Below, one piece after another: positions 26,953-64,000 of a stretch of DNA of 64,000 bases. Where the stretch lies: NCBI GenBank assembly GCA_964036275.1, contig OZ038436.1:20239904-20303903 (forward strand), given 5' to 3'. Numbering within the stretch: position 1 is the first letter of the stretch; the number at the start of each line of letters is the position of its first letter. The translations under genes and the position numbers were made by a program. Under the pieces are notes generated by a model. That model was given only the letters and a program-made list of their open reading frames with translations. It searched no databases and was not told the origin of the DNA. The stretch comes from Litoditis marina. Its lineage: Eukaryota > Nematoda > Chromadorea > Rhabditida > Rhabditidae.

Positions 26953-27108
26953 CTAAACAAACTGTGTAGAAAATGGAAGAGCTCACATATCTTATTGTCC
27001 TATGAACTATTTTCTTTTCCCGCAGTTCAATTGGAACAGTCTTCGTCATGAGAACGGGTTCTCTGGTAGGGCTCACATATCCCAGCTAGGAACAACGCTC
27101 AATACGTA

Positions 27109-27180
27109 GCGTCCGTGGTGTAATGGTCAGCATGGATGCCTTCCAAGCATTCGACGGGGGTTCGATTCCCCCCGGACGCA
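27109..27180 (+). tRNA. tRNA-Gly(UCC)
   Basis: Consensus 72 nt, same folding as the copy at 16090. Class B flank. First complete copy of the array. Confidence 0.96.
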
Positions 27181-27555
27181 TATATTTTGTTTTTGATTTC
27201 AATTTTGGTATTTTGTTACTCGAAACGTTTGTGATGAATAAATCTAGCGTCATTACAGGACATTTTCACCCGTCTAAGGTTTGTAGTTATTTTATTTTCA
27301 ATAAATTTGATGAAAACACTTTGTAAGTCGCTATAATTACTTTGTAACCTACAGTAAGCTTTAAGTACCTTTCACTAATTGTAGAATGGATGAAAAGTCG
27401 TCTAAATCATTTGAAACGATCCCGATTATTATGTTATTGTCTTACCGTATGAACTATTTTCTTTTCCCGCAGTTCAATTGGAACAGCCTTCGTCATGAGA
27501 ACGGGTTCTCTGGTAGGGCTCACATATCCCAGCTAGGAACAACGCTCAGTACGTA

Positions 27556-27627
27556 GCGTCCGTGGTGTAATGGTCAGCATGGATGCCTTCCAAGCATTCG
27601 ACGGGGGTTCGATTCCCCCCGGACGCA
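27556..27627 (+). tRNA. tRNA-Gly(UCC)
   Basis: Consensus 72 nt. Class A flank. Confidence 0.96.
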
Positions 27628-28003
27628 TATATTTTGTTTTTGATTTCAATTTTGGTATTTTGTTACTCGAAACGTTTGTAATAAACAAACCAAGGGTCAT
27701 TACAAAACATTTTCACCCGTCTGAGGTTTGTAGTCGTTTTATTTTCAATAAATTTGATGAAAACACTTTGTAAGTCGCTATAATTTTTTTTGTAACCTAC
27801 AGTAAACTTTAAGTACCTTTGACTAATTGTAGAATGGATGAAAAGTCGTCTAAATCATTTGAAACGATCCCAATTAACATCTTATCGTCCTACCGTATGA
27901 ACTGTTTTCTTTTCCCGCAGTTCAATTGGAACAGTCTTCATCATGAGAACGGGTTCTCTGGTGGGGCTCACATATCCCAGCTAGGAACAACGCTCAGTAC
28001 GTA

Positions 28004-28075
28004 GCGTCCGTGGTGTAATGGTCAGCATGGATGCCTTCCAAGCATTCGACGGGGGTTCGATTCCCCCCGGACGCA
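28004..28075 (+). tRNA. tRNA-Gly(UCC)
   Basis: Consensus 72 nt. Class A flank. Confidence 0.96.
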
Positions 28076-28451
28076 TATATTTTGTTTTTGATTTCAATTT
28101 TGGTATTTTGTTACTCGAAACGTTTGTAATAAACAAACCAAGCGTCATTACAAAACATTTTCTCCCGTCTGAGGTTTGTAGTCGTTTTATTTTCAATAAA
28201 TTTGATGAAAACACTTTGTAAGTCGCTATAATTTTTTTTGTAACCTACAGTAAACTTCAAGTACCTTTGACTAATTGTAGAATGGATGAAAAGTCGTCTA
28301 AATCATTTGAAACGATCCCAATTAACATCTTATCGTCCTACCGTATAAACTGTTTTCTTTTCCCGCAGTTCAATTGGAACAGTCTTCGTCATGAGAACGG
28401 GTTCTCTGGTGGGGCTCACATATCCCAGCTAGGAACAACGCTCAGCACGTA

Positions 28452-28523
28452 GCGTCCGTGGTGTAATGGTCAGCATGGATGCCTTCCAAGCATTCGACGG
28501 GGGTTCGATTCCCCCCGGACGCA
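28452..28523 (+). tRNA. tRNA-Gly(UCC)
   Basis: Consensus 72 nt. Class A flank with a small deletion (ACAAAAATTTTCACC). Confidence 0.96.
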
Positions 28524-28894
28524 TATATTTTGTTTTTGATTTCAAATTTGATATTTTGTTACTCGAAACGTTTGTAATAAACAAACCAAGCGTCATTACA
28601 AAAATTTTCACCCGTCTGAGGTTTGTAGTCGTTATATTTTCAATAAATTTGATGAAAACACTTTGTAAGTCGCCATAATTACTTTGTAACCTACAGTAAG
28701 CTTTAAGTACCTTTTACTAATTGTAGAATGGATGAAATGTCGTCTAAATCATTTGAAACGATCCCAATTACTATCTTATTGTCCTACCATATAAACTGTT
28801 TTTTCCCGCAGTTCAATTGGAACAGTCTTCGTCATGAGAACGGGTTCTCTGGTGGGGCTCACATATCCCAGCTAGGAACAACGCTCAGTACGTA

Positions 28895-28966
28895 GCGTCC
28901 GTGGTGTAATGGTCAGCATGGATGCCTTCCAAGCATTCGACGGGGGTTCGATTCCCCCCGGACGCA
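28895..28966 (+). tRNA. tRNA-Gly(UCC)
   Basis: Consensus 72 nt. Class A flank, close relative of the preceding unit. Confidence 0.96.
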
Positions 28967-29339
28967 TATATTTTGTTTTTGATTTCAAATTTGATATTTT
29001 GTTACTCGAAACGTTTGTAATAAACAAACCAAGCGTCATTACGAAAATTTTCACCCGTCTGAGGTTTGTAGTCGTTATATTTTCAATAAATTTGATGAAA
29101 ACACTTTGTAAGTCGCCATAATTACTTTGTAACCTACAGTAAGCTTTAAGTACCTTTTACTAATTGTAGAATGGATGAAAAGTCGTCTAAATCATTTGAA
29201 ACGATCCCAATTACTATCTTATTGTCCTACCGTATGAATTGTTTTCTTTCCCGCAGTTCAATTGGAACAGTCTTCGTCATGAGAACGGGTTGTCTGGTAG
29301 GGCTCACATATCTCAGCTAGGAACAACGCTCAGTACGTA

Positions 29340-29410
29340 GCGTCCGTGGTGTAATGGTCAGCATGGATGCCTTCCAAGCATTCGACGGGGGTTCGATTCC
29401 CCCGGACGCA
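29340..29410 (+). pseudogene. tRNA-Gly(UCC), one base lost (71 nt)
   Basis: One C is missing where the T stem meets the acceptor stem (five C instead of six), so G7 loses its partner or the T stem shortens. Class B flank. Last plus copy before the turning point. Confidence 0.75.
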
Positions 29411-29627
29411 TATATTTTGTTTTTGATTTCAATTTTGGTATTTTGTTACTCGAAACGTTTGTGATGAATAAATCTAGCTTCATTACAAGACATTTTCACC
29501 CGTATAAGGTTTGTAGTTATTTTATTTTCAATAAATTTGATGAAAACACTTTGTAAGTCGCAAAGTTTGTTTATTACAAACGTTTCGAGTAACAAAATAC
29601 CAAAATTGAAATCAAAAATAAAATATA
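29411..29627. repeat. turning point 1 of the array (convergent palindrome)
   Basis: The flank 29411-29462 is mirrored at 29576-29627 around an asymmetric 113-nt centre. The orientation change falls at about 29562, where a plus-strand AAGTCGC joins a minus-strand class A flank. tRNAs on both sides point toward this centre. Confidence 0.9.
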
Positions 29628-29699
29628 TGCGTCCGGGGGGAATCGAACCCCCGTCGAATGCTTGGAAGGCATCCATGCTGACCATTACACCACGGACGC
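29628..29699 (-). tRNA. tRNA-Gly(UCC)
   Basis: Consensus 72 nt. Its downstream flank is cut short by turning point 1. Confidence 0.95.
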
Positions 29700-30071
29700 T
29701 ACGTACTGAGCGTCGTTCCTAGCTGGGATATGTGAGCCCCACCAGACAACCCGTTCTCATGACGAAGACTGTTCCAATTAAACTGCGGGAAAAAAACAGT
29801 TCATACGGTAGGACAATAAGATAGTAATTGGGATCGTTTCAAATGATTTAGACGACATTTCATCCATTCTACAATTAGTAAAAGGTACTTAAAGCTTACT
29901 GTAGGTTACAAAGTAATTATGGCGACTTACAAAGTGTTTTCATCAAATTTATTGAAAATATAACGACTACAAACCTCAGACGGGTGAAAATTTTTGTAAT
30001 GACGCTTGGTTTGTTTATTACAAACGTTTCGAGTAACAAAATACCAAAATTGAAATCAAAAACAAAATATA

Positions 30072-30143
30072 TGCGTCCGGGGGGAATCGAACCCCCGTCG
30101 AATGCTTGGAAGGCATCCATGCTGACCATTACACCACGGACGC
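30072..30143 (-). tRNA. tRNA-Gly(UCC)
   Basis: Consensus 72 nt. Class A flank with the same small deletion as the unit at 28895, its mirror partner. Confidence 0.96.
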
Positions 30144-30519
30144 TACGAACTGAGCGTTGTTCCTAGCTGGGATATGTGAGCCCTACCAGAGAACCCGTTC
30201 TCATGACGAAGACTGGTCCAATTGAACTGCGGGAAAAGAAAACAGTTCATACGGTAGGACGATAAGATGTTAATTGGGATCGTTTCAAATGATTTAGACG
30301 ACTTTTCATCCATTCTACAATTAGTCAAAGGTACTTAAAGTTTACTGTAGGTTACAAAAAAAATTATAGCGACTTACAAAGTGTTTTCATCAAATTTGTT
30401 GAAAATAAAACGACTACAAACCTCAGACGGGTGAAAATGTTTTGTAATGACGCTTGGTTTGTTTATTACAAACGTTTCGAGTAACAAAATACCAAAATTG
30501 AAATCAAAAACAAAATATA

Positions 30520-30591
30520 TGCGTCGGGGGGGAATCGAACCCCCGTCGAATGCTTGGAAGGCATCCATGCTGACCATTACACCACGGACGC
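30520..30591 (-). tRNA. tRNA-Gly(UCC) with an acceptor mismatch
   Basis: A G-to-C change in the 3' acceptor strand places C opposite C at acceptor pair 6. Otherwise consensus. Class A flank. Function doubtful. Confidence 0.8.
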
Positions 30592-30967
30592 TACGTACTG
30601 AGCGTTGTTCCTAACTGGGATATGTGAGCCCCACCAGAGAACCCGTTCTCATGATGAAGACTGTTCCAATTGAACTGCGGGAAAAGAAAACAGTTCATAC
30701 GGTAGGACGATAAGATGTTAATTGGGATCGTTTCAAATGATTTAGACGACTTTTCATCCATTCTACAATTAGTCAAAGGTACTTAAAGTTTACTGTAGGT
30801 TACAAAAAAAATTATAGCGACTTACAAAGTGTTTTCATCAAATTTATTGAAAATAAAACGACTACAAACCTCAGACGGGTGAAAATGTTTTGTAATGACG
30901 CTTGGTTTGTTTATTACAAACGTTTCGAGTAACAAACTACCAAAATTGAAATCAAAAACAAAATATA

Positions 30968-31039
30968 TGCGTCCGGGGGGAATCGAACCCCCGTCGAATG
31001 CTTGGAAGGCATCCATGCTGACCATTACACCACGGACGC
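30968..31039 (-). tRNA. tRNA-Gly(UCC)
   Basis: Consensus 72 nt. Class A flank. Confidence 0.96.
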
Positions 31040-31411
31040 TACGTGCTGAGCGTTGTTCCTAGCTGGGATATGTGAGCCCCACCAGAGAACCCGTTCTCAT
31101 GACGAAGACTGTTCCAATTGAACTGCGGGAAAAAACAGTTTATATGGTAGGACAATAAGATAGTAATTGGGATCGTTTCAAATGATTTAGACGACTTTTC
31201 ATCCATTCTACAATTAGTGAAAGGTACTTAAAGCTTACTGTAGGTTACAAAGTAATTATAGCGACTTACAAAGTGTTTTCATCAAATTTATTGAAAATAA
31301 AACGACTACAAACCTCAGACGGGTGAAAATGTTTTGTAATGACGCTTGGTTTGTTTATTACAAACGTTTCGAGTAACAAAATACCAAAATTGAAATCAAA
31401 AACAAAATATA

Positions 31412-31483
31412 TGCGTCCGGGGGGAATCGAACCCCCGTCGAATGCTTGGAAGGCATCCATGCTGACCATTACACCACGGACGC
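31412..31483 (-). tRNA. tRNA-Gly(UCC)
   Basis: Consensus 72 nt. Class A flank. Confidence 0.96.
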
Positions 31484-31858
31484 TACGTGCTGAGCGTTGT
31501 TCCTAGCTGGGATATGTGAGCCCCACCAGAGAACCCGTTCTCATGACGAAGACTGTTCCAATTGAACTGCGGGAAAAGAAAACAATTCATACGGTAGGAC
31601 AATAAGATGGTAATTGGGATCGTTTCAAATGATTTAGACGACTTTTCATCCATTCTACAATTAGTGAAAGGTACTTAAAGCTTACTGTAGGTTACAAAGT
31701 AATTATAGCGACTTACAAAGTGTTTTCATCAAATTTATTGAAAATAAAATAACTACAAACCTTAGACGGGTGAAAATGTCCTGTAATGACGCTAGATTTA
31801 TTCATCACAAACGTTTCGAGTAACAAAATACCAAAATTGAAATCAAAAACAAAATATA

Positions 31859-31930
31859 TGCGTCCGGGGGGAATCGAACCCCCGTCGAATGCTTGGAAGG
31901 CATCCATGCTAACCATTACACCACGGACGC
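31859..31930 (-). tRNA. tRNA-Gly(UCC), D-loop variant
   Basis: GGTTAG replaces GGTCAG in the D loop, a harmless change. Class B flank. The only other copy with this change is at 43739 on the plus strand. Confidence 0.95.
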
Positions 31931-32303
31931 TACGTACTGAGCGTTGTTCCTAGCTGAGATATGTGAGCCCTACCAGAGAACCCGTTCTCATGACGAAGAC
32001 TGTTCCAATTGAACTGCGGGAAAAAAAACAGTTCATACGGTAGGACAATAAGATAGTAATTGGGATCGTTTCAAATGATTTAGACGACTTTTCATCCATT
32101 CTACAATTAGTCAAAGGTACTTAAAGCTTACTGTAGGTTACAAAAAAATATAGCGACTTACAAAGTGTTTTCATCAAATTTATTGAAAATAAAACGACTA
32201 CAAACCTCAGACGGGTGAAAATGTTTTGTAATGACGCTTGGTTTGTTTATTACAAACGTTTCGAGTAACAAAATACCAAAATTGAAATCAAAAACAAAAT
32301 ATA

Positions 32304-32375
32304 TGCGTCCGGGGGGAATCGAACCCCCGTCGAATGCTTGGAAGGCATCCATGCTGACCATTACACCACGGACGC
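32304..32375 (-). tRNA. tRNA-Gly(UCC)
   Basis: Consensus 72 nt. Class A flank. Confidence 0.96.
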
Positions 32376-32750
32376 TACGTACTGAGCGTTGTTCCTAGCT
32401 GGGATATGTGAGCCCCACCAGAGAACCCGTTCTCATGACGAAGACTGTTCCAATTGAACTGCGGGAAAAGAAAATAGTTCATACGGTAGGACAATAACAT
32501 AATAATCGGGATCGTTTCAAATGATTTAGACGACTTTTCATCCATTCTACAATTAGTAAAAGGTACTTAAAGCTTACTGTAGGTTACAAAGTAATTATAG
32601 CGACTTACAAAGTGTTTTCATCAAATTTATTGAAAATAAAACGACTACAAACCTCAGACGGGTGAAAATGTTTTGTAATGACGCTTGGTTTGTTTATTAC
32701 AAACGTTTCGAGTAACAAAATACCAAATTTGAAATCAAAAACAAAATATA

Positions 32751-32822
32751 TGCGTCCGGGGGGAATCGAACCCCCGTCGAATGCTTGGAAGGCATCCATG
32801 CTGACCATTACACCACGGACGC
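32751..32822 (-). tRNA. tRNA-Gly(UCC)
   Basis: Consensus 72 nt. Class A flank. Its pre-tRNA segment reads CAGCTGGGAAC, shared with the unit at 42848. Confidence 0.96.
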
Positions 32823-33196
32823 TACGTACTGAGCGTTGTTCCCAGCTGGGATATGTGAGCCCCACCAGAGAACCCGTTCTCATGACGAAGACTGTTCCAA
32901 TTGAACTGCGGGAAAAGAAAATAGTTCATACGGTAGGACAATAACATAATAATCGGGATCGTTTCAAATGATTTAGACGACTTTTCATCCATTCTACAAT
33001 TAGTCAAAGGTACTTAAAGCTTACTGTACGTTACAAAAAAATATAGCGACTTACAAAGTGTTTTCATCAAATTTATGGAAAATAAAACCTCTACAAACCT
33101 CAGACGGGTGAAAATGTTTTGTAATGACGCTTGGTTTGTTTATTACAAACGTTTCGAGTAACAAAATACCAATTTTGAAATCAAAAACAAAATATA

Positions 33197-33268
33197 TGCG
33201 TCCGGGGGGAATCGAACCCCCGTCGAATGCTTGGAAGGCATCCATGCTGACCATTACACCACGGACGC
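33197..33268 (-). tRNA. tRNA-Gly(UCC)
   Basis: Consensus 72 nt. Class A flank with TAGAGGTTTTATTTTCCATA, shared with units at 42848 and 43294. Confidence 0.96.
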
Positions 33269-33640
33269 TACGTACTGAGCGTCGTTCCTAGCTGGGATAT
33301 GTGAGCCCTACCAGAGAACCCGTTCTCATGACGAAGACTGTTCCAATTGAACTGCGGGAAAAAACAGTTCATACGTTAGGACAATAAGATAGTAATTGGG
33401 ATCGTTTCAAATGATTTAGACGACTTTTCATCCATTCTACAATTAGTAAAAGGTACTTAAAGCTTACTGTACGTTACAAAAAAAATATAGCGACTTACAA
33501 AGTGTTTTCATCAAATTTATTGAAAATAAAACGACTACAAACCTCAGACGGGTGAAAATGTTTTGTAATGACGCTTGGTTTGTTTATTACAAACGTTTCG
33601 AGTAACAAAATACCAAAATTGAAATCAAAAACAAAATATA

Positions 33641-33712
33641 TGCGTCCGGGGGGAATCGAACCCCCGTCGAATGCTTGGAAGGCATCCATGCTGACCATTA
33701 CACCACGGACGC
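33641..33712 (-). tRNA. tRNA-Gly(UCC)
   Basis: Consensus 72 nt. Class A flank. Confidence 0.96.
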
Positions 33713-34087
33713 TACATACTGAGCGTTGTTCCTAGCTGGGATATGTGAGCCCCACCAGAGAACCCGTTCTCATGATGAAGACTGTTCCAATTGAACTGCG
33801 GGAAAAGAAAACAATTCATACGGTAGGACAATAACATAATAATCGGGATCGTTTCAAATGATTTGGACGACTTTTCATCCATTCTACAATTAGTAAAAGG
33901 TACTTAAAGCTTACTGTAGGTTACAAAGTAATTATAGCGACTTACAAAGTGTTTTCATCAAATTTATTGAAAATAAAATAACTACAAACCTTAGACGGGT
34001 GAAAATTTCCTGTAATGACGCTAGATTTATTCATCACAAACGTTTCGAGTAACAAAATACCAAAATTGAAATCAAAAACAAAATATA

Positions 34088-34159
34088 TGCGTCCGGGGGG
34101 AATCGAACCCCCGTCGAATGCTTGGAAGGCATCCATGCTGACCATTACACCACGGACGC
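34088..34159 (-). tRNA. tRNA-Gly(UCC)
   Basis: Consensus 72 nt. Class B flank. Confidence 0.96.
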
Positions 34160-34534
34160 TACGTACTGAGCGTTGTTCCTAGCTGGGATATGTGAGCCCT
34201 ACCAGAGAACCCGTTCTCATGATGAAGACTGTTCCAATTGAACTGCGGGAAAAGAAAACAATTCATACGGTAGGACAATAACATAATAATCGGGATCGTT
34301 TCAAATGATTTAGACGACTTTTCATCCATTCTACAATTAGTAAAAGGTACTTAAAGCTTACTGTACGTTACAACAAAAATATAGCGACTTACAAAGTGTT
34401 TTCATCAAATTTATTGAAAATAAAACGACTACAAACCTCAGACGGGTGAAAATGTTTTGTAATGACGCTTGGTTTGTTTATTACAAACGTTTCGAGTAAC
34501 AAAATACCAAAATTGAAATCAAAAACAAAATATA

Positions 34535-34606
34535 TGCGTCCGGGGGGAATCGAACCCCCGTCGAATGCTTGGAAGGCATCCATGCTGACCATTACACCAC
34601 GGACGC
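34535..34606 (-). tRNA. tRNA-Gly(UCC)
   Basis: Consensus 72 nt. Class A flank. Confidence 0.96.
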
Positions 34607-34981
34607 TACGTACTGAGCGTTGTTCCTAGCTGGGATATGTGAGCCCCACCAGAGAACCCGTTCTCATGATGAAGACTGTTCCAATTGAACTGCGGGAAAA
34701 GAAAACAATTCATACGGTAGGACAATAACATAATAATCGGGATCGTTTCAAATGATTTGGACGACTTTTCATCCATTCTACAATTAGTAAAAGGTACTTA
34801 AAGCTTACTGTAGGTTACAAAGTAATTATAGCGACTTACAAAGTGTTTTCATCAAATTTATTGAAAATAAAATAACTACAAACCTTAGACGGGTGAAAAT
34901 TTCCTGTAATGACGCTAGATTTATTCATCACAAACGTTTCGAGTAACAAAATACCAAAATTGAAATCAAAAACAAAATATA

Positions 34982-35053
34982 TGCGTCCGGGGGGAATCGA
35001 ACCCCCGTCGAATGCTTGGAAGGCATCCATGCTGACCATTACACCACGGACGC
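34982..35053 (-). tRNA. tRNA-Gly(UCC)
   Basis: Consensus 72 nt. Class B flank. Confidence 0.96.
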
Positions 35054-35428
35054 TACGTACTGAGCGTTGTTCCTAGCTGGGATATGTGAGCCCTAACAGA
35101 GAACCCGTTCTCTTGATGAAGACTGTTCCAATTGAACTGCGGGAAAAGAAAACAATTCATACGGTAGGACAATAACATAATAATCGGGATCGTTTCAAAT
35201 GATTTGGACGACTTTTCATCCATTCTACAATTAGTAAAAGGTACTTAAAGCTTACTGTAGGTTACAAAGTAATTATAGCGACTTACAAAGTGTTTTCATC
35301 AAATTTATTGAAAATAAAATAACTACAAACCTTAGACGGGTGAAAATTTCCTGTAATGACGCTAGATTTATTCATCACAAACGTTTCGAGTAACAAAATA
35401 CCAAAATTGAAATCAAAAACAAAATATA

Positions 35429-35500
35429 TGCGTCCGGGGGGAATCGAACCCCCGTCGAATGCTTGGAAGGCATCCATGCTGACCATTACACCACGGACGC
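35429..35500 (-). tRNA. tRNA-Gly(UCC)
   Basis: Consensus 72 nt. Class B flank, near identical to its neighbours on both sides. Confidence 0.96.
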
Positions 35501-35875
35501 TACGTACTGAGCGTTGTTCCTAGCTGGGATATGTGAGCCCCACCAGAGAACCCGTTCTCATGATGAAGACTGTTCCAATTGAACTGCGGGAAAAGAAAAC
35601 AATTCATACGGTAGGACAATAACATAATAATCGGGATCGTTTCAAATGATTTGGACGACTTTTCATCCATTCTACAATTAGTAAAAGGTACTTAAAGCTT
35701 ACTGTAGGTTACAAAGTAATTATAGCGACTTACAAAGTGTTTTCATCAAATTTATTGAAAATAAAATAACTACAAACCTTAGACGGGTGAAAATTTCCTG
35801 TAATGACGCTAGATTTATTCATCACAAACGTTTCGAGTAACAAAATACCAAAATTGAAATCAAAAACAAAATATA

Positions 35876-35947
35876 TGCGTCCGGGGGGAATCGAACCCCC
35901 GTCGAATGCTTGGAAGGCATCCATGCTGACCATTACACCACGGACGC
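35876..35947 (-). tRNA. tRNA-Gly(UCC)
   Basis: Consensus 72 nt. Class B flank. Confidence 0.96.
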
Positions 35948-36321
35948 TACGTACTGAGCGTTGTTCCTAGCTGGGATATGTGAGCCCTAACAGAGAACCC
36001 GTTCTCTTGACGAAGACTGCTCCAATTGAACTGCGGGAAAAGAAAACAAGTCATACAGTAGGACAATAAGATAGTAATTGGGATCGTTTCAAATGATTTA
36101 GACGACTTTTCATCCATTCTACAATTAGTCAAAGGTACTTAAAGCTTACTGTACGTTACAAAAAAAATTATAGCGACTTACAAAGTGTTTTCATCAAATT
36201 TATTGAAAATAAAATAACTACAAACCTTAGACGGGTGAAAATGTCCTGTAATGAAGCTAGATTTATTCATCACAAACGTTTCGAGTAACAAAATACCAAA
36301 ATTGAAATCAAACAAAATATA

Positions 36322-36393
36322 TGCGTCCGGGGGGAATCGAACCCCCGTCGAATGCTTGGAAGGCATCCATGCTGACCATTACACCACGGACGC
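36322..36393 (-). tRNA. tRNA-Gly(UCC)
   Basis: Consensus 72 nt. Class B flank with a two-base deletion (TTTTGTTTGATTTC), also seen only in the unit at 42406. Confidence 0.96.
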
Positions 36394-36766
36394 TACGTAT
36401 TGAGCGTTGTTCCTAGCTGGGATATGTGAGCCCTACCAGAGAACCCGTTCTCATGACGAAGACTGTTCCAATTGAACTGCGGGAAAAGAAAACAATTCAT
36501 ACGGTAGGACAATAACATAATAATCGGGATCGTTTCAAATGATTTAGACGACTTTTCATCCATTCTACAATTAGTCAAAGGTACTTAAAGCTTACTGTAC
36601 GTTACAAAAAAATATAGCGACTTACAAAGTGTTTTCATCAAATTTATTGAAAATAAAACGACTACAAACCTCAGACGGGTGAAAATTTTTGTAATGACGC
36701 TTGGTTTGTTTATTACAAACGTTTCGAGTAACAAAATATCAAATTTGAAATCAAAAACAAAATATA

Positions 36767-36838
36767 TGCGTCCGGGGGGAATCGAACCCCCGTCGAATGC
36801 TTGGAAGGCATCCATGCTGACCATTACACCACGGACGC
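36767..36838 (-). tRNA. tRNA-Gly(UCC)
   Basis: Consensus 72 nt. Class A flank with the short-deletion form. Confidence 0.96.
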
Positions 36839-37199
36839 TACGTATTGAGCGTTGTTCCTAGCTGGGATATGTGAGCCCTACCAGAGAACCCGTTCTCATG
36901 ACGAAGACTGTTCCAATTGAACTGCGGGAAAAAACAGTTCATACGGTAGGACAATAAGATAGTAATTGGGATCGTTTCAAATGATTTAGACGACTTTTCA
37001 TCCATTCTACAATTACTCAAAGGTACTTAAAGCTTACTGTACGTTACAAAAAAATATAGCGACTTACAAAGTGTTTTCATCAAATTTATTGAAAATAAAA
37101 CGACTACAAACCTCAGATGTTTTGTAATGACGCTTGGTTTGTTTATTACAAACGTTTCGAGTAACAAAATATCAAATTTGAAATCAAAAACAAAATATA

Positions 37200-53920: not shown

Positions 53921-53922
53921 AT

Positions 53923-53936: not shown

Positions 53937-53963
53937 TTTTCTTTCCTGCTCACATCTTCCTAT

Positions 53964-54057
53964 AAGTCCCACCTAGCGGCAATCTTGAAAAAGTCCATCT
54001 TAGTGACAACGTAAGTCCCATCTAGCGGCAATCTCTTACAGTCCCAACTAGCGGCAT
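53964..54057 (+). repeat. three leader repeats AGTCCCA..TAGCGGCA
   Basis: AGTCCCACCTAGCGGCA at 53964 recurs with small changes at 54013 and 54040, between the primer-binding site and the gag start. Confidence 0.8.
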
Positions 54058-54129
54058 AATTTCACCCGAGAGGGGTAATATTACATCTTTTCGTTCATTG
54101 ATAAGTCCTTAGTTAAGGCAATTGTGAAC

Positions 54130-57100
54130 ATGTCTGGAGCTATACGCACCCAGATAGGGCTATCTGTTGCTCGTCTCAAAAAATATCTTTCAGAATGTAC
54201 TACCAATCTTCCTTCTCTTACACTCAAGGTTGAAGAAACGGACGACACCGTCATTTATTCTACTCTAGACAAGGTACAACGACTAATCAAAAATCTTTCA
54301 TCAACAAACAATATTCTTGAAAATCTCCACTCACAATGGAGTACAAAAATGGATAAAGACGAAGAAAAAGTCTATGAGAAGTTCATTCATGAAAAAGGAA
54401 ATTATCTTGAGACAGTTGAAAAAGCAAAAGATATGCTAGACAAACTATTTGAACTCCGCGATCTTTACAAACGCGAACTGGATCTTATGTCTGAACCAAA
54501 CGATGATCTTAACGAGAACATCTTAGGAAACTCTCCTACAGGAGTTAGTCCTCCGTGCCCACCGTCAAATACGGTAACTACTATTGACTATCTTCCAAGA
54601 ATAAGTATCCCACCATTTAATGGAGATATCGTGAAATGGTCTTCATTTTGGGAAGCATATTCTTCAATGATACATTCTCAATCTCTCAATGATTGTATCA
54701 AGTTCTATCATCTCAAATCTTTACTTCGAGGTGATGCTTCGCGCCTTCTTTCAGGCCTCACTACAGATTCCACAAACTACCCAATAGCAATTGACATGCT
54801 CAAAGAAGCATACGGCAACACAGCAGACATTTGCCACCGATTGAGAGCTCAGCTACTATCATTTGAGGTACGATCTTCCAACTCATCTGATTTACTCAAA
54901 TCTTACCATCAAATCTTGCAACTTTACCGACAATTGAAAGCACTTGGAGACGACCCTGATTCAACCACCTGTGCTCAAGTTATTGAATCACGTTTTCCTA
55001 AGTTTATCATGTCACGTGTAATTAATAAGCTCACTTCAACCAACTATTCTACTAGTGAATTGCTCGAGAAAATCGGAGAAGAAGTGAAAAAGAATGCTAA
55101 ACTCGACCGACTTTACTCTGAGAATGGCTCATTTCGCAACAATGGAAACAGTTCATTTCCAAACAAAAACAATTCTTCACATCAGTTTCACTCTGGAAAA
55201 CCCTACAACAACAATAGAAATTCTCCTCCTAGAAACTCCAATCAACAGGGAAACACACCTCCCGTTTCGTCTACATTTGCATCTTACGATGTATGCGCGT
55301 ACTGTACGCAGAACCACAAATCTGAAGAACAGCCCACGTTTTCCGCACGTAGCACTCTTGTTAGAGAAAAGCGTCTGTGTCGCAACTGTTTGAAACCTGG
55401 ACATAATAGTCGCGACTGTCAAAGCAAATTTAGCTGTAGACACTGTCAACAACGCCATCACTCGTCTCTTTGCAAGACACTCTTTCCTAATGAAAATTCT
55501 TCGAATAACAAAAAACAAACCGAAAAAAGAAAACAATATTACAAGACTGATCAGCCGAAAACTTTTCCATTCAAAAATACTCCGCTCAACACTAAAGTAG
55601 CTATCAACAACTCTTCCGATCCCTCTTTTGAGCAATCTATCGGATCAACCACATCCCAAGTCGATAACTCTTGCTTTATCTCAAAAGTGCAGTCCCACGC
55701 ACATCGATCTATTCATTCAGATGAAAACAAAGAGAATATTGCGCCTACAGTGACCGACAGGAAGATCTTAATGCTATGCACGACTATTTGCGTTTCCAAT
55801 CCCATAACACGTGAGAAAACTACAGTCACTGCCTTTTTTGACAGCGGAAGCTCACGTTCGTACATTACGGAACCTCTTGCTTCCTTCTTGAAACTTCCAT
55901 CTTACGGAATTGAACAATTGAACATTAGTACTTTCGGTTCCACCGATCCTCTTTCTCTTAATTCAAACCGTTATCCCCTCTTAATTCATTTTGTAGATGA
56001 ATCCACTCTTTCTATGGTTATTTCTTCCATGCCTGAAATGTCTAGTACAATGCAATCTGTTGACATTAATCTTTCTGATATTCCTTATTTAAAGGAAGCA
56101 CAGCTTGTTCGTTTACCGTCTGCAACTGTAAATCCGTCCATCTTACTAGGCTCAGATTATTTATGGCAAATTCTTGAGAATCATACTACAACAAAATTGC
56201 CATCCGGGTTTACATTACTAGAAACCAAAATTGGACCAATGTTAACTGGCCAAGGTTCTCTTAACCATTTAGAACAAGCTTTCAGCACTCTAGAAATTGA
56301 TAACCAATTAGAAGGAAATTTACACCAAACTCTTGAAAAATTTTGGTCTCTTGAATCAATGGGAATTAATGACAACCCTCAACTTTCCGATGACGCAGAA
56401 TGTTTGAAACATTTCAAATCAACAATTTCCAAAGTTGGCCCTCGTTATAGAACAAAATGGCCCTGGAAAACCAAAAAGCCTAATATTCTTACAAATTACG
56501 GTATTTGTGCTCATCGCTTGAACTCCACATACAAAAAACTTGTGGACGACCCTTCTCTTTTGGAAAAATACAATAACATCTTCATAGAGCAATTGCAACT
56601 CGGAATTATTGAAAAAATTCCAAATAACCATATAGACGAAAGTTCAATCATTCATTATTTGCCACACCACCCGGTTGTCACACCTAACAAAACTTCCACT
56701 AAAGTGCGCATTGTTTATGATGCCTCAGCTAAAACAAAGGGACACAACTCTTTGAACGAATGTTTATACCGTGGCCCTGTCTTATTACCTGATCTTGCTG
56801 GTATTCTTCTTCGATCACGTTTTCCTAACATTCTTGTAATAAGTGATATTGAAAAAGCATTCTTACAAATTGAACTGGATCTTCCAGATAGGGAAGTTAC
56901 ACGTTTCTTATGGTTGAAAGACATTACACAACCTCCAATCAAGTCCAACTTACAAGAATATCGTTTCGTTCGAGTACCATTCGGAGTTATTTCAAGCCCA
57001 TTTCTTCTTGGAGCTACAATAATTCACCATCTTGAGAATTCCGAAACTACAATTTCTTCTGATCTTTTACGTAATCTTTACGTTGATAATGCAATGTTAG

Positions 57101-57984
57101 GTGCTCAAAGCACAGCAGAAGCTACAGAAATCTTCTATGAGTCACGTAAACTATTCCAAGAAGCATCAATGAATCTACGTGATTTTGTTTCAAACGATGA
57201 CAAATTCAATGAATTTCTCAAACAACAGGGTATGATTCCACCCGATAAACTAAAAGTACTCGGTCTTCAATGGGATACAATAAAGGATTCTTATTCCATT
57301 TCTCTTCCTAGCTTTGATTCTTCTCCAATTAGCAAACGAACTATCTTGAAGTTTATTGCTTCTGTTTTCGATCCTCTGGGGTTTTTGGGACCTCTTCTTA
57401 TAGCATCAAAACGTTTCATGCAATCTCTTTGGAAAGAGAATCTTTCTTGGGACCAACCTTTGGGTAATGAAAAGGCTGCCATGTGGCACGATATTGTTTC
57501 ACAATGGAACAGTCAAACTTTCACTTTTTCTCGCCAACTACAGATCGATTCCAGCCAACCAATCAATTTACACTGTTTCGTTGACGCTTCTGGTTACGCA
57601 TATGGCGCCGTATGTTATCTTCGATTTACAAATAAACTAACTCAAAAGATAGAGACATCTCTAATCTTTTCTAAGAATCGCCTGGCACCCATCCACACTA
57701 TTACCATTCCTAAGCTCGAACTAATGGCTATGTTAGTTGGTGCGAGAATGATCAAGTTCTTACACAATGAGCTCGACCTCAATATCGATCAATCTTTCTT
57801 ATGGTCTGACTCTTCATGCGTGCTCAGCTGGCTAAAATCAGAAAAAGAACTACCTGTTTTCGTAAGGAACAGAATCAACGAAATTCAAAGTATAGCAGTT
57901 CCCATGTCTTTCCGTCATGTTCGCACTCATGAGAATCCAGCGGATATTTTAAGTCGTGGTTCAACTTTAAGTACCTTTGACTAA
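54130..57984 (+). CDS. BEL/Pao gag-pol polyprotein, truncated
   Basis: Structural, protease and reverse-transcriptase polyprotein in one frame, 1284 codons from the ATG at 54130 (a GTG six bases earlier is not a likely start). Domains: gag region of the DUF1759 type at about residues 150-300 (PPFNGDIVKWSSFWE); zinc knuckles at about 417 (CRNCLKPGHNSRDC) and 435 (CRHCQQRHHSSLC); aspartic protease DSGSS at about 571; reverse transcriptase from about 859 (VRIVYDAS, DIEKAFLQI, YVDN at 984); RNase H from about 1151 (FVDASG, PKLELMAM, SDSSC). The frame leaves the element after ADILSRG and its last residues and stop come from the tRNA-Gly repeat. No internal stop or frameshift is seen, so the copy looks young despite the truncation. 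Confidence 0.93.
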   Translation: MSGAIRTQIGLSVARLKKYLSECTTNLPSLTLKVEETDDTVIYSTLDKVQRLIKNLSSTNNILENLHSQWSTKMDKDEEKVYEKFIHEKGNYLETVEKAKDMLDKLFELRDLYKRELDLMSEPNDDLNENILGNSPTGVSPPCPPSNTVTTIDYLPRISIPPFNGDIVKWSSFWEAYSSMIHSQSLNDCIKFYHLKSLLRGDASRLLSGLTTDSTNYPIAIDMLKEAYGNTADICHRLRAQLLSFEVRSSNSSDLLKSYHQILQLYRQLKALGDDPDSTTCAQVIESRFPKFIMSRVINKLTSTNYSTSELLEKIGEEVKKNAKLDRLYSENGSFRNNGNSSFPNKNNSSHQFHSGKPYNNNRNSPPRNSNQQGNTPPVSSTFASYDVCAYCTQNHKSEEQPTFSARSTLVREKRLCRNCLKPGHNSRDCQSKFSCRHCQQRHHSSLCKTLFPNENSSNNKKQTEKRKQYYKTDQPKTFPFKNTPLNTKVAINNSSDPSFEQSIGSTTSQVDNSCFISKVQSHAHRSIHSDENKENIAPTVTDRKILMLCTTICVSNPITREKTTVTAFFDSGSSRSYITEPLASFLKLPSYGIEQLNISTFGSTDPLSLNSNRYPLLIHFVDESTLSMVISSMPEMSSTMQSVDINLSDIPYLKEAQLVRLPSATVNPSILLGSDYLWQILENHTTTKLPSGFTLLETKIGPMLTGQGSLNHLEQAFSTLEIDNQLEGNLHQTLEKFWSLESMGINDNPQLSDDAECLKHFKSTISKVGPRYRTKWPWKTKKPNILTNYGICAHRLNSTYKKLVDDPSLLEKYNNIFIEQLQLGIIEKIPNNHIDESSIIHYLPHHPVVTPNKTSTKVRIVYDASAKTKGHNSLNECLYRGPVLLPDLAGILLRSRFPNILVISDIEKAFLQIELDLPDREVTRFLWLKDITQPPIKSNLQEYRFVRVPFGVISSPFLLGATIIHHLENSETTISSDLLRNLYVDNAMLGAQSTAEATEIFYESRKLFQEASMNLRDFVSNDDKFNEFLKQQGMIPPDKLKVLGLQWDTIKDSYSISLPSFDSSPISKRTILKFIASVFDPLGFLGPLLIASKRFMQSLWKENLSWDQPLGNEKAAMWHDIVSQWNSQTFTFSRQLQIDSSQPINLHCFVDASGYAYGAVCYLRFTNKLTQKIETSLIFSKNRLAPIHTITIPKLELMAMLVGARMIKFLHNELDLNIDQSFLWSDSSCVLSWLKSEKELPVFVRNRINEIQSIAVPMSFRHVRTHENPADILSRGSTLSTFD

Positions 57985-58159
57985 TTGTAGAATGGATGAA
58001 AAGTCGTCTCAATCATTTGAAACGATCCCAATTACTATCTTATTGTCCTTACGTATGAACTGTTTTTTTCCCGCAGTTCAATTGGAACAGCCTTCGTCAT
58101 GAGAACGGGTTCTCTGGTGGGGCTCACATATCCCAGCTAGGAACAATGCTCAGTACGTA

Positions 58160-58231
58160 GCGTCCGTGGTGTAATGGTCAGCATGGATGCCTTCCAAGCA
58201 TTCGACGGGGGTTCGATTCCCCCCGGACGCA
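58160..58231 (+). tRNA. tRNA-Gly(UCC)
   Basis: Consensus 72 nt. Class A flank. First tRNA after the retrotransposon. Confidence 0.96.
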
Positions 58232-58602
58232 TATATTTTGTTTTTGATTTCAAATTTGATATTTTGTTACTCGAAACGTTTGTAATAAACAAACCAAGCG
58301 TCATTACAAAACATTTTCACCCGTCTGAGGTTTGTAGTCGTTTTATTTTCAATAAATTTGATGAAAACACTTTGTAAGTCGCTATATTTTTTTGTAACGT
58401 ACAGTAAGCTTTAAGTACCTTTGACTAATTGTAGAATGGATGAAAAGTCGTCTAAATCATTTGAAACGATCCCAATTACTATCTTATTGTCCTACCGTAT
58501 GAACTGTTTTTTCCCGCAGTTCAATTGGAACAGTCTTCGTCATGAGAACGGGTTGTCTGGTGGGGCTCACATATCCCAGCTAGGAACAACGCTCAATACG
58601 TA

Positions 58603-58673
58603 GCGTCCGTGGTGTAATGGTCAGCATGGATGCCTTCCAAGCATTCGACGGGGGTTCGATTCCCCCGGACGCA
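58603..58673 (+). pseudogene. tRNA-Gly(UCC), one base lost (71 nt)
   Basis: Five C instead of six at the T-stem/acceptor junction, as at 29340 and 62005. Class B flank. Confidence 0.75.
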
Positions 58674-59049
58674 TATATTTTGTTTTTGATTTCAATTTTG
58701 GTATTTTGTTACTCGAAACGTTTGTGATGAATAAATCTAGCTTCATTACAGGACATTTTCACCCGTCTAAGGTTTGTAGTTATTTTATTTTCAATAAATT
58801 TGATGAAAACACTTTGTAAGTCGCTATAAATTTTTTTGTAACGTACAGTAAGCTTTAAGTACCTTTGACTAATTGTAGAATGGATGAAAAGTCGTCTAAA
58901 TCATTTGAAACGATCCCAATTACTATCTTATTGTCCTACTGTATGACTTGTTTTCTTTTCCCGCAGTTCAATTGGAGCAGTCTTCGTCATGAGAACGGGT
59001 TCTCTGTTAGGGCTCACATATCCCAGCTAGGAACAACGCTCAGTACGTA

Positions 59050-59121
59050 GCGTCCGTGGTGTAATGGTCAGCATGGATGCCTTCCAAGCATTCGACGGGG
59101 GTTCGATTCCCCCCGGACGCA
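59050..59121 (+). tRNA. tRNA-Gly(UCC)
   Basis: Consensus 72 nt. Class A flank with the 12-bp deletion. Confidence 0.96.
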
Positions 59122-59482
59122 TATATTTTGTTTTTGATTTCAAATTTGATATTTTGTTACTCGAAACGTTTGTAATAAACAAACCAAGCGTCATTACAAA
59201 ACATCTGAGGTTTGTAGTCGTTTTATTTTCAATAAATTTGATAAAAACACTTTGTAAGTCGCTATATTTTTTTGTAACGTACAGTAAGCTTTAAGTACCT
59301 TTGACTAATTGTAGAATGGATGAAAAGTCGTCTAAATCATTTGAAACGATCCCAATTACTATCTTATTGTCCTACCGTATGAACTGTTTTTTCCCGCAGT
59401 TCAATTGGAACAGTCTTCGTCATGAGAACGGGTTCTCTGGTAGGGCTCACATATCCCAGCTAGGAACAACGCTCAGTACGTA

Positions 59483-59554
59483 GCGTCCGTGGTGTAATGG
59501 TCAGCATGGATGCCTTCCAAGCATTCGACGGGGGTTCGATTCCCCCCGGACGCA
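59483..59554 (+). tRNA. tRNA-Gly(UCC)
   Basis: Consensus 72 nt. Class B flank. Confidence 0.96.
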
Positions 59555-59930
59555 TATATTTTGTTTTTGATTTCAATTTTGGTATTTTGTTACTCGAAAC
59601 GTTTGTGATGAATAAATCTAGCTTCATTACAGGACATTTTCACCCGTCTAAGGTTTGTAGTTATTTTATTTTCAATAAATTTGATGAAAACACTTTGTAA
59701 GTCGCTATAATTTTTTTTGTAACGTACAGTAAGCTTTAAGTACCTTTGACTAATTGTAGAATGGATGAAAAGTCGTCTAAATCATTTGAAACGATCCCAA
59801 TTGCTATCTTATTGTCCTACCGTATGAATTGTTTTCTTATCCCGCAGTTCAATTGGAACAGTCTTCGTCATGAGAACGGGTTCTCTGTTAGGGCTCACAT
59901 ATCCCAGCTAGGAACAACGCTCAGTACGTA

Positions 59931-60002
59931 GCGTCCGTGGTGTAATGGTCAGCATGGATGCCTTCCAAGCATTCGACGGGGGTTCGATTCCCCTCGGACG
60001 CA
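59931..60002 (+). tRNA. tRNA-Gly(UCC) with a G-U T-stem pair
   Basis: C-to-T at the 3' end of the T stem (CCCCTCGG) gives a G-U closing pair; probably tolerated. Class B flank. Confidence 0.88.
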
Positions 60003-60374
60003 TATATTTTGTTTTTGATTTCAATTTTGGTATTTTGTTACTCGAAACGTTTGTGATGAATAAATCTAGCGTCATTACAGGAAATTTTCACCCGTCTAAG
60101 GTTTGTAGTTGTTTAATTTTCAATAAATTCGATCAAAACACTTTGTAAGTCGCTATATTTTTTTGTAACGTACAGTAAGCTTTAAGTACCTTTGACTAAT
60201 TGTAGAATGGATGAAAAGTCGTCTAAATCATTTGAAACGATCCCAATTACTATCTTATTGTCCTACCGTATGAACTGTTTTTTTCCCGCAGTTCAATTGG
60301 AACAGTCTTCGTCATGAGAACGGGTTCTCTGTTAGGGCTCACATATCCCAGCTAGGAACAACGCTCAGTACTTA

Positions 60375-60446
60375 GCGTCCGTGGTGTAATGGTCAGCATG
60401 GATGCCTTCCAAGCATTCGACGGGGGTTCGATTCCCCCCGGACGCA
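60375..60446 (+). tRNA. tRNA-Gly(UCC)
   Basis: Consensus 72 nt; preceded by ACTTAG. Class A flank. Confidence 0.96.
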
Positions 60447-60817
60447 TATATTTTGTTTTTGATTTCAAATTTGATATTTTGTTACTCGAAACGTTTGTAA
60501 TAAACAAACCAAGCGTCATTACAAAACATTTTCACCCGTCTGAGGTTTGTAGTCGTTTTATTTTCAATAAATTTGATGAAAACACTTTGTAAGTCGCTAT
60601 ATTTTTTTGTAACGTACAGTAAGCTTTAAGTACCTTTGACTAATTGTAGAATGGATGAAAAGTCGTCTAAATCATTTGAAACGATCCCAATTACTATCTT
60701 ATTGTCCTACCGTATGAACTGTTTTTTCCCGCAGTTCAATTGGAACAGTCTTCGTCATGAGAACGGGTTGTCTGGTGGGGCTCACATATCCCAGCTAGGA
60801 ACAACGCTCAGTACGTA

Positions 60818-60889
60818 GCGTCCGTGGTGTAATGGTCAGCATGGATGCCTTCCAAGCATTCGACGGGGGTTCGATTCCCCCCGGACGCA
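60818..60889 (+). tRNA. tRNA-Gly(UCC)
   Basis: Consensus 72 nt. Class A flank. Confidence 0.96.
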
Positions 60890-61131
60890 TATATTTTGTT
60901 TTTGATTTCAAATTTGATATTTTGTTACTCGAAACGTTTGTAATAAACAAACCAAGCGTCATTACAAAACATTTTCACCCGTCTGAGGTTTGTAGTCGTT
61001 TTATTTTCAATAAATTTGATGAAAACACTTTGTAAGTCGCTATATTTTTTGTAACGTACAGTAAGCTTTAAGTACCTTTGACTAATTGTAGAATGGATGA
61101 AAAGTCGTCTAAATCATTTGAAACGATCCCA

Positions 61132-61196
61132 TGGTGTAATGGTCAGCATGGATGCCTTCCAAGCATTCGACGGGGGTTCGATTCCCCCCGCACGCA
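61132..61196 (+). pseudogene. tRNA-Gly(UCC) fragment without 5' acceptor strand
   Basis: Starts at tRNA position 8 directly after AACGATCCCA, because a deletion removed the pre-tRNA segment and the first seven bases. The 3' acceptor also carries GG-to-GC. Class B flank. Confidence 0.92.
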
Positions 61197-61571
61197 TATA
61201 TTTAGTTTTTGATTTCAATTTTGGCATTTTGTTACTCGAAACGTTTGTGATGAATAAATCTAGCTTCATTACAGGATATTTTCACCCGTCTAAGGTTTGT
61301 AGTTAATTTATTTTCAATAAGTTTGATGAAAACACTTTGTAACTCGCTAGAATTACTTTGTAACCTACAGTAAGCTTCAAGTACCTTTTACTAATTGTAG
61401 AATGGATGAAAAGTCGTCTAAATCATTTGATACGATCCCGATTAACATCTTATTGTCCTACCGTATGAATTGTTTTCTTTTCCCGCAGTTCAATTGGAAC
61501 AGTCTTCATCATGAGAACGGGTTGTCTGGTAGGGCTCACATATCCCAGCTAGGAACAACGCTCAGTACGTA

Positions 61572-61643
61572 GCGTCCGTGGTGTAATGGTCAGCATGGAT
61601 GCCTTCCAAGCATTCGACGGGGGTTCGATTCCCCCCGGACGCA
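61572..61643 (+). tRNA. tRNA-Gly(UCC)
   Basis: Consensus 72 nt. Class A flank with the 12-bp deletion. Confidence 0.96.
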
Positions 61644-62004
61644 TATATTTTGTTTTTGATTTCAAATTTGATATTTTGTTACTCGAAACGTTTGTAATAA
61701 ACAAACCAAGCGTCATTACAAAACATCTGAGGTTTGTAGTCGTTTTATTTTCAATAAATTTGATGAAAACACTTTGTAAGTCGCTATTTTTTTTTGTAAC
61801 GTACAGTAAGCTTTAAGTACCTTTGACTAATTGTAGAATGGATGAAAAGTCGTCTAAATCATTTGAAACGATCCCAATTACTATCTTATTGTCCTACCGT
61901 ATGAACTGTTTTTTCCCGCAGTTCAATTGGAACAGTCTTCGTCATGAGAACGGGTTGTCTGGTGGGGCTCACATATCCCAGCTAGGAACAACGCTCAATA
62001 CGTA

Positions 62005-62075
62005 GCGTCCGTGGTGTAATGGTCAGCATGGATGCCTTCCAAGCATTCGACGGGGGTTCGATTCCCCCGGACGCA
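62005..62075 (+). pseudogene. tRNA-Gly(UCC), one base lost (71 nt)
   Basis: Five C at the T-stem/acceptor junction. Class B flank. Near copy of the unit at 58603. Confidence 0.75.
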
Positions 62076-62451
62076 TATATTTTGTTTTTGATTTCAATTT
62101 TGGTATTTTGTTACTCGAAACGTTTGTGATGAATAAATCTAGCTTCATTACAGGACATTTTCACCCGTCTAAGGTTTGTAGTTATTTTATTTTCAATAAA
62201 TTTGATGAAAACACTTTGTAAGTCGCTATAATTTTTTTTGTAACGTACAGTAAGCTTTAAGTACCTTTGACTAATTGTAGAATGGATGAAAAGTCGTCTA
62301 AATCATTTGAAACGATCCCAATTACTATCTTATTGTCCTACTGTAAGACTTGTTTTCTTTTCCCGCAGTTCAATTGGAGCAGTCTTCGTCATGAGAACGG
62401 GTTCTCTGTTAGGGCTCACATATCCCAGCTAGGAACAACGCTCAGTACGTA

Positions 62452-62523
62452 GCGTCCGTGGTGTAATGGTCAGCATGGATGCCTTCCAAGCATTCGACGG
62501 GGGTTCGATTCCCCCCGGACGCA
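62452..62523 (+). tRNA. tRNA-Gly(UCC)
   Basis: Consensus 72 nt. Class B flank. Confidence 0.96.
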
Positions 62524-62898
62524 TATATTTTGTTTTTGATTTCAATTTTGGTATTTTGTTACTCGAAACGTTTGTGATGAATAAATCTAGCGTCATTACA
62601 GGAAATTTTCACCCGTCTAAGGTTTGTAGTTATTTTATTTTCAATAAATTTGATGAAAACACTTTGTAAGTCGCTATAATTACTTTGTAACCTACAGTAA
62701 GCTTTAAGTACCTTTTACTAATTGTAGAATGGATGAAAAGTCGTCCAAATCATTTGAAACGATCCCGATTATTATGTTATTGTCCTACCGTATGAATTGT
62801 TTTCTTTTCCCGCAGTTCAATTGGAACAGTCTTCATCATGAGAACGGGTTCTCTGGTGGGGCTCACATATCCCAGCTAGGAACAACGCTCAGTACGTA

Positions 62899-62970
62899 GC
62901 GTCCGTGGTGTAATGGTCAGCATGGATGCCTTCCAAGCATTCGACGGGGGTTCAATTCCCCCCGGACGCA
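62899..62970 (+). tRNA. tRNA-Gly(UCC), T-loop variant
   Basis: TTCAATT in the T loop (purine kept at position 57). The change also weakens the B box (GGTTCAATTCC). Class A flank. Confidence 0.9.
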
Positions 62971-63345
62971 TATATTTTGTTTTTGATTTCAATTTTGGTA
63001 TTTTGTTACTCGAAACGTTTGTAATAAACAAACCAAGCTTCATTACAAAACATTTTCACCCGTCTGAGGTTTGTAGTCGTTTTATTTTCAATAAATTTGA
63101 TGAAAACACTTTGTAAGTCGCTATAATTACTTTGTAACCTACAGTAAGCTTTATGTACCTTTTACTAATTGTAGAATGGATGAAAAGTCGTCCAAATCAT
63201 TTGAAACGATCCCGATTATTATGTTATTGTCCTACCGTATGAATTGTTTTCTTATCCCGCAGTTCAATTGGAACAGTCTTCGTCATGAGAACGGGTTGTC
63301 TGGTAGGGCTCACATATCCCAGCTAGGAACAACGCTCAGTACGTA

Positions 63346-63415
63346 GCGTCCGTGGTGTAATGGTCAGCATGGATGCCTTCCAAGCATTCGACGGGGGTTC
63401 GATTCTCCCCGGACA
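63346..63415 (+). pseudogene. tRNA-Gly(UCC), acceptor end lost
   Basis: Same CTCCCCGGACA lesion as 45081, and the flank carries the same GATGAATGAATCTAG change, so the two units are recent copies of each other. Confidence 0.85.
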
Positions 63416-63788
63416 TATTTTGTTTTTGATTTCAATTTCGGTATTTTGTTACTCGAAACGTTTGTGATGAATGAATCTAGCTTCATTACAGGACATTTTC
63501 ACCCGTCTAAGGTTTGTAGTTATTTTATTTTCAATAAATTCGATCAAAACACTTTGTAAGTCGCTATAACTACTTTGTAACGTACAGTAAGCTATAAGTA
63601 CCTTTGACTAATTGTAGAATGGATGAAAAGTCGTCTAAATCATTTGAAACGATCCCGATTAATTTCTTATTGTCCTACCGTATGAACTGTTTTCTTTTCC
63701 CGCAGTTCAATTGGAACAGTCTTCGTCATGAGAACGGGTTCTCTGGTAGGGCTCACATATCCCAGCTAGGAACAACGCTCAATACGTA

Positions 63789-63860
63789 GCGTCCGTGGTG
63801 TAATGGTCAGCATGGATGCCTTCCAAGCATTCGACGGGGGTTCGATTCCCCCCGGACGCA
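63789..63860 (+). tRNA. tRNA-Gly(UCC)
   Basis: Consensus 72 nt. Class A flank with AAACTAACCAAGCG as in 45524. Last copy in the window. Confidence 0.96.
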
Positions 63861-64000
63861 TATATTTTGTTTTTGATTTCAAATTTGATATTTTGTTACT
63901 CGAAACGTTTGTAATAAACTAACCAAGCGTCATTACAAAACATTTTCACCCGTCTGAGGTTTGTAGTCGTTTTATTTTCAATAAATTTGATGAAAACACT

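Follow-up and report, generated by a model that had tools for sequence, protein, structure and literature searches.

An array of tRNA-Gly(UCC) genes on contig C2

The 64,000-nucleotide stretch of Litoditis marina DNA analyzed here (the window; bases 20,239,904-20,303,903 of contig C2, which is 24.7 Mb long in an assembly of 261.8 Mb and 522 contigs) holds in its right part a tandem array of tRNA-Gly(UCC) genes. The adjoining 200 kb of C2 were fetched and scanned together with the window, and positions are given in window numbering unless a contig is named. Coverage by BLAST matches to the repeat unit showed that unit sequence extends from 26,917 to 135,728 (108.8 kb) and thus beyond the window edge, the right end being C2 position 20375631. 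The part within the window, 26917-64000 on both strands, contains 70 tRNA-Gly(UCC) genes identified by ARAGORN, starting at 27,109. One more lies outside the array as a solo gene at 16090-16161 (plus strand), and its flanks are related to the array unit but diverged from it, with two adjoining matches of 85% and 90%. In the window and the next 200 kb, ARAGORN identified 192 tRNA genes, 189 of them within 27,109-135,463 and three as singles outside the array; Rfam gave 192 tRNA matches in the window and the next 80 kb, the copy at 16,090 counted and 42 of the matches being outside the listing. A first-pass annotation of the window, made from the sequence without database searches, had described a tandem array of at least 37 kb that was open at the right edge and had 71 copies or remnants. 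The array proved to be real and larger than claimed. The proposed unit of roughly 447 bp was recovered by Tandem Repeats Finder (TRF) as a main period of 444-448 bp, and the estimate of about 58 full tRNAs came close to the 54 array copies in the window that are identical to the commonest 72-mer.

The first tRNA of the array (27109-27180, plus strand) has this commonest 72-nt sequence, which scored 68.3 bits in Rfam against a cut-off of 29. It is followed by the T-run TTTTGTTTTT at 27185-27194 (plus strand), a predicted terminator of RNA polymerase III (Pol III). The array begins with a plus-strand block of a 448-bp unit (27001-29561; TRF, 5.7 copies, 96% matches) and continues with an inverted block on the minus strand (29565-39414), which TRF resolved into 22 copies of a 447-bp unit and whose tRNAs lie on the minus strand at 29,628-39,046. 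A further plus-strand block at 39400-53615 consists of 447-bp units that are later mixed with 608-bp units, in which a 161-bp piece of the spacer is present twice, as seen from TRF (rows 46573-52557) and from the tRNA spacing. This block is followed by the insert of a BEL/Pao-type retrotransposon fragment (53615-57964, plus strand), which was recognized by Pfam matches and a gap in the unit coverage. Behind the insert the array resumes with 444-447-bp units (57965-64000, plus strand; TRF, ARAGORN) and remains open at the window edge. The insert (4.35 kb) has an open frame at 54,079-57,984 and matched Peptidase_A17, DUF1759 and DUF1758 above the Pfam cut-off and RVT_1 below it. The best matches listed in a protein search were about 50% identical and came from nematodes, molluscs and other organisms; no long direct repeats belonging to the insert were found at its flanks.

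Along the whole C2 array, tRNA spacings of 447 bp (46 times), 446 bp (34 times) and 608 bp (17 times) were commonest, and TRF detected the extra 161-bp spacer duplication in some of the units. Spacings of 930, 769 and other lengths form blocks, as unequal exchange would give. Within 27,000-135,600, unit matches cover 98,612 of 108,600 bases, and five non-matching stretches of at least 60 bases were found. They include the BEL/Pao-type insert and two stretches of 1,275 bp located 9,042 bp apart, which point to a copied segment. The array changes strand three times within 109 kb (at about 29.5, 39.4 and 76.1 kb), which might indicate an assembly artefact, either the expansion of a smaller locus or false joins at the inverted blocks. 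However, the units differ from one another, the spacing classes lie in ordered blocks and five inserts interrupt the array. In addition, non-array sequence flanks it on both sides within the 24.7-Mb contig, and other tRNA arrays occur on other contigs. An artefact of this kind is therefore extremely unlikely.

Conservation of the tRNA relative to the spacer

Since the tRNA finder selects intact tRNAs, units were also picked by the spacer alone. Among 190 units defined by the upstream spacer, 189 carried a tRNA with at least 68 of 72 matching bases, which was exact in 148 cases; the one unit without a tRNA adjoins a strand switch. The downstream spacer defined 201 units, 189 with a tRNA, two with a weaker one and 10 without. 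In the last group, one match sits at a strand switch and another at a spacer duplication, and the other eight form pairs spaced by 214 bp; these matches look like partial copies of the spacer. The mean diversity per column of the C2 array was about 17-fold lower in the tRNA than in the flanks (0.0045 versus 0.0751), and the lowest value among 237 other 72-column segments of the unit was 0.0247. Similarly, 4,000 random pairs of units differed at 0.44% of positions in the tRNA versus 5.3% in the near flank. A TTTT stretch was present within 25 nt after the tRNA in all 189 units of the C2 array and also in 12 of 12 units of a second array on contig C17. Thus, the C2 array consists of head-to-tail units with the same intact tRNA and a common spacer, and the tRNA is conserved beyond that spacer. 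As exchange between units would level both parts alike, this gap in diversity needs selection.

The second array comprises 12 units near 12.61-12.62 Mb of C17, and in all 12 the tRNA is identical to the commonest C2 sequence. The consensus sequences of the two arrays showed no difference at the 72 tRNA positions, whereas the flanks differed at 26.8% of the columns (gaps counted as differences). Because the spacers of both arrays are related, the zero tRNA differences are the only part of this comparison that needs selection. The exact 72-mer occurred 172 times in the genome, 148 times in the C2 array, 12 times in the C17 array and at 12 single loci. About 20 kb from the C17 array, an outlier unit (L033; C17:12638256) has a tRNA that is 7 bases longer by an internal duplication. 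C17 (18.1 Mb) harbors at least four tRNA arrays, one array of SL2-type spliced leaders and seven of the 12 exact single copies of Gly(UCC). The tRNA genes of Caenorhabditis elegans are enriched on the X chromosome, and because C17 is rich in tRNAs it may be the X chromosome.

The first-pass annotation had considered both a real tRNA locus and a satellite with a captured tRNA, and the conservation of the tRNA against the spacer favors the former. If satellite DNA had captured a tRNA gene, the tRNA would be a passenger and its number meaningless for translation. The 447-bp period, the higher-order repeats and the inverted blocks do resemble the build of a satellite, and holocentric nematode genomes have been described as satellite-rich by Eccles et al. 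(2018; PMC5765664). A passenger, however, would drift at the rate of the spacer, and this was not observed: all but one of the units defined by the upstream spacer keep the tRNA, its diversity is far below that of the flanks, and it is unchanged between C2 and C17. A satellite with a passenger tRNA thus appears very unlikely. Also an origin of the repeats as a tRNA-derived short interspersed nuclear element was rejected, as matches over the whole unit were confined to the array loci of C2 and C17 and most dispersed matches covered little more than the tRNA, in a search that gives lower bounds for dispersed matches.

Within the tRNA, diversity was 0.0012 in the anticodon arm, 0.0048 in the A box and 0.0086 in the B box. 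Because the anticodon arm is no less conserved than the two boxes, the pattern points to selection on the tRNA product, not on box binding only. This bears on the possibility that the array is kept as a chromatin device for the binding of TFIIIC and TFIIIB, acting as insulator, boundary, nuclear-pore anchor or part of the holocentric structure, with the tRNA product being secondary. The A and B boxes are indeed kept in the array, and the human tRNA repeat at 1q23.3 has been proposed as a boundary element (PMC4041453). Selection for binding only would, however, favor the boxes over the anticodon arm, contrary to the values obtained, and we consider a chromatin device with a secondary tRNA product to be quite unlikely.

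A 5′ motif shared with dispersed loci

A 5′ motif, predicted to be part of a promoter, precedes the first tRNA of the array at 27083-27108 (plus strand), with CTAGGA at -23 to -18 and CGTA at -4 to -1. It was found in the same register at 15 dispersed loci, which are not all independent, as those at 146,600 and 236,666 are near-copies of each other and another (L036) has some array flank. The array-related copies at 16,090 and L033, a different tRNA-Gly (L047) and two truncated copies (L048, L049) were left out of this set; four of the 15 loci have an altered tRNA (L035, L044, L045, L046). In the C2 array, CAGCTAGGAA and ACGTA are in register with the dispersed loci, and diversity is lower at -59 to -1 than farther upstream. 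Y-R-T-A directly precedes the tRNA at all 15 dispersed loci. Other bases matching the array are C at -26 (14 of 15), T at -22 (13), A at -21 (12), G at -20 (13) and A at -6 (13). The mean information across these loci was 0.80 bits per column at -33 to -1, versus 0.29 at -66 to -34 and 0.23 at -99 to -67. We infer that the 5′ block may help to place TFIIIB.

Other tRNA arrays in the genome

The first-pass annotation had described one locus, but the genome holds several tRNA arrays. The Gly(GCC) core, with up to three mismatches, was found at 167 places; 83 of the 100 listed are located at C16:32.69-33.06 Mb, where many steps among the matches listed are near 452 and 633 bp. Of the 20 Gly(GCC) tRNAs in four stretches that were retrieved, 17 were identical. 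A Gly(GCC) copy on C1 (L051; C1:19512) is altered at its first base and is followed by CCA at the 3′ end; two more core matches, C1:38783 and C1:60830, are about 20 kb apart, and all three fall within 61 kb of the contig start. The Pro core occurred at 343 places (100 listed), with arrays at C17:7.40-7.45 Mb, where CGG and UGG genes alternate in a 783-bp unit in the sample taken, and at C17:9.857-9.861 Mb, where UGG genes are repeated in a 142-bp unit. For the initiator Met tRNA, 91 of 94 places lie in C4:7,730,424-7,762,699 with a unit of about 298 bp. The Asn tRNA was found at no fewer than 60 places, 52 of which lie in C17:3,655,173-3,710,462; this count is a lower bound, with 40 of 417 candidates scored, and seven other tRNAs of the same query may have been crowded out. 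Several isoacceptors, namely those for Gly(GCC), Pro(UGG), Pro(CGG), initiator Met and Asn, are thus arrayed in the same genome as Gly(UCC). The core patterns tried for Lys and Asp gave no match and that for Trp one place, results of little weight. The five counts add up to at least 836 places (172+167+343+94+60), three of them including copies with up to three mismatches; for C. elegans, a total of 609 tRNA genes has been given (PMC4999229). The spacers of different isoacceptors showed no similarity to one another at E 1e-5. Similarity between the two Gly(GCC) unit types amounts to 80% over 266 bp; that between the two Pro types extends over 86 bases, approximately the tRNA.

The amplification of both Gly and Pro tRNAs might be explained by the demand of the moult for cuticle collagens, which are rich in Gly-X-Y and in GGA. 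Eighteen collagen-like exons were hand-picked from 88 matches, one per cluster and with an open frame of at least 180 aa. GGA, which is read by UCC, accounted for 268 of 368 Gly codons, a figure obtained from the collagen-like exons alone. The Pro codons of these exons, in contrast, were CCC (153 of 271), CCT (62), CCA (47) and CCG (9), and are ill-suited to the sampled UGG and CGG tRNAs. In addition, initiator Met and Asn are arrayed as well. With Gly(UCC), Gly(GCC) and Pro known to be arrayed, collagen as the only cause had seemed well supported, but these two observations weakened it; we now regard collagen supply as an unlikely explanation of the arrays.

Spliced leaders and other features of the window

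The nematode origin of the DNA, assumed in the first-pass annotation, agreed with the spliced leaders of the genome. The 22-mer of SL1 was present in 765 exact copies (223 + 542) and its reversed control in none, and 54 copies of SL2-type leaders were found, mostly in arrays of about 403 bp. We take the SL2-type leaders to be a sign of a rhabditine nematode. SL1 and 5S rRNA share one tandem unit of about 1,367 bp (L029 and C1:64508-90899), the 5S rRNA being seen at a sampled SL1 locus. To the left of the tRNA array, window positions 22910-23430 are a 521-bp run of the 7-base unit GTCTCTC (TRF, 74 copies, 97% matches). A segment at about 10,737-10,840 (plus strand), within an open frame at 10,557-11,159, presumably resembles the start of a major sperm protein; the frame had no Pfam match. 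None of eight open frames from the left half of the window that were compared with Pfam gave a match.

A probable multicopy dosage locus

Taken together, the array of ~447-bp units is probably a multicopy Pol III dosage locus whose uniformity is maintained through unequal exchange and selection on the tRNA, a reading to which we assign a probability of roughly 0.78. It is based on sequence comparison, as the tRNA is nearly constant while the spacers drift, both within the C2 array and between C2 and C17. It is further based on the A and B boxes, on the T-run, on the conserved 5′ block, a feature shared by the dispersed loci, and on the fact that other tRNAs are arrayed likewise. Nearly every unit has one complete tRNA-Gly(UCC) gene, and Pol III transcription of the units would depend on the internal boxes together with the 5′ element. 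The array would grow and shrink by unequal crossing-over, as suggested by the higher-order repeats, the segment copied about 9 kb apart and the inverted blocks. Exchange would keep the units alike, and selection would keep the tRNA intact.

Several points weigh against a dosage locus. Of the 189 array tRNAs, 41 differ from the commonest 72-mer, some of them in the acceptor or T stems. Common ancestry, seen in their related spacers, explains the unit design that C2 and C17 share, and gene conversion between arrays of one tRNA could keep the tRNA identical. Finally, copy number and inverted junctions rest on the assembly, which could contain errors.

A more far-reaching proposal is tentative, and we consider it possible rather than probable: the nematode may have transferred much of its tRNA supply, including the initiator, to arrays that resemble ribosomal DNA, hold the tRNAs of one amino acid each and are distributed over several chromosomes. 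It may also drive its Gly-UCC genes by a gene-external promoter (GCTAGGA ... AACGTA), so that dosage would be tunable by array length and one upstream factor.

Comparison with known tRNA arrays and implications

According to a statement from 2010, tandem repeats of tRNAs had until then been reported only from Entamoeba (Bermudez-Santana et al., PMC2888827). The first-pass annotation knew of no description of such an array in a nematode, but close to 150 copies of a ~200-bp tRNA-Trp unit and 90 tRNA-Ser copies with an 80-bp spacer have already been reported from Nippostrongylus brasiliensis (Eccles et al., 2018, PMC5765664). According to the same authors, C. elegans is without tRNA repeats so massive. 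As in L. marina, each tandem unit of N. brasiliensis has one tRNA, and the spacers of N. brasiliensis are species-specific. The isoacceptors differ: Trp and Ser are arrayed in N. brasiliensis, whereas Gly, Pro, initiator Met and Asn are arrayed here, the one Trp core sought being found at a single place. In the available text, the N. brasiliensis account gives neither a test for selection nor a 5′ motif.

Tandem arrays of tRNAs are also known from Hydractinia and Nematostella (PMC11067881); in Hydractinia nearly all tRNA types are arrayed, compared to six anticodons of four amino acids shown to be arrayed here. Entamoeba likewise has tandem units, which hold one to five tRNA types and are mostly uniform within an isolate, and its spacers diverge fast between species (PMC2652664). 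In this protist, however, almost all tRNA genes are arrayed, with an estimated 4,500 copies making up >10% of the genome (PMC2652664), whereas in L. marina dispersed single copies persist alongside the arrays. The human 1q23.3 repeat has a 7.3-kb unit with five tRNAs and a CTCF site (PMC4041453), as opposed to one tRNA in ~447 bp. In Xenopus, the oocyte tRNA arrays are tandem repeats and Pol III targets that are activated in the early embryo (PMC11500080, a commentary), and tRNA tandem arrays are named in a study of the Drosophila simulans complex, in which the tRNAs number about 300 in all (PMC7919458). No published nematode array of Gly, Pro, initiator Met or Asn tRNAs, no such selection contrast or 5′ motif, and by title no nematode other than N. 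brasiliensis was found among the hits listed, in a search that lay mostly outside subscription journals and wholly outside bioRxiv. Nematode tRNA arrays as such are already known, and the isoacceptors for Gly, Pro, initiator Met and Asn add to Trp and Ser.

Identical tRNA genes can usually not be distinguished by sequence, but in this array the usage of about 190 copies becomes testable through leaders and trailers that are specific to single units. Dispersed single copies of the same tRNA can serve as controls in asking whether and when array copies are active, and in what number. In addition, the C2 array yields a candidate promoter element outside the gene. The findings also suggest that short-read assemblies of nematodes may underestimate the number of tRNA genes.

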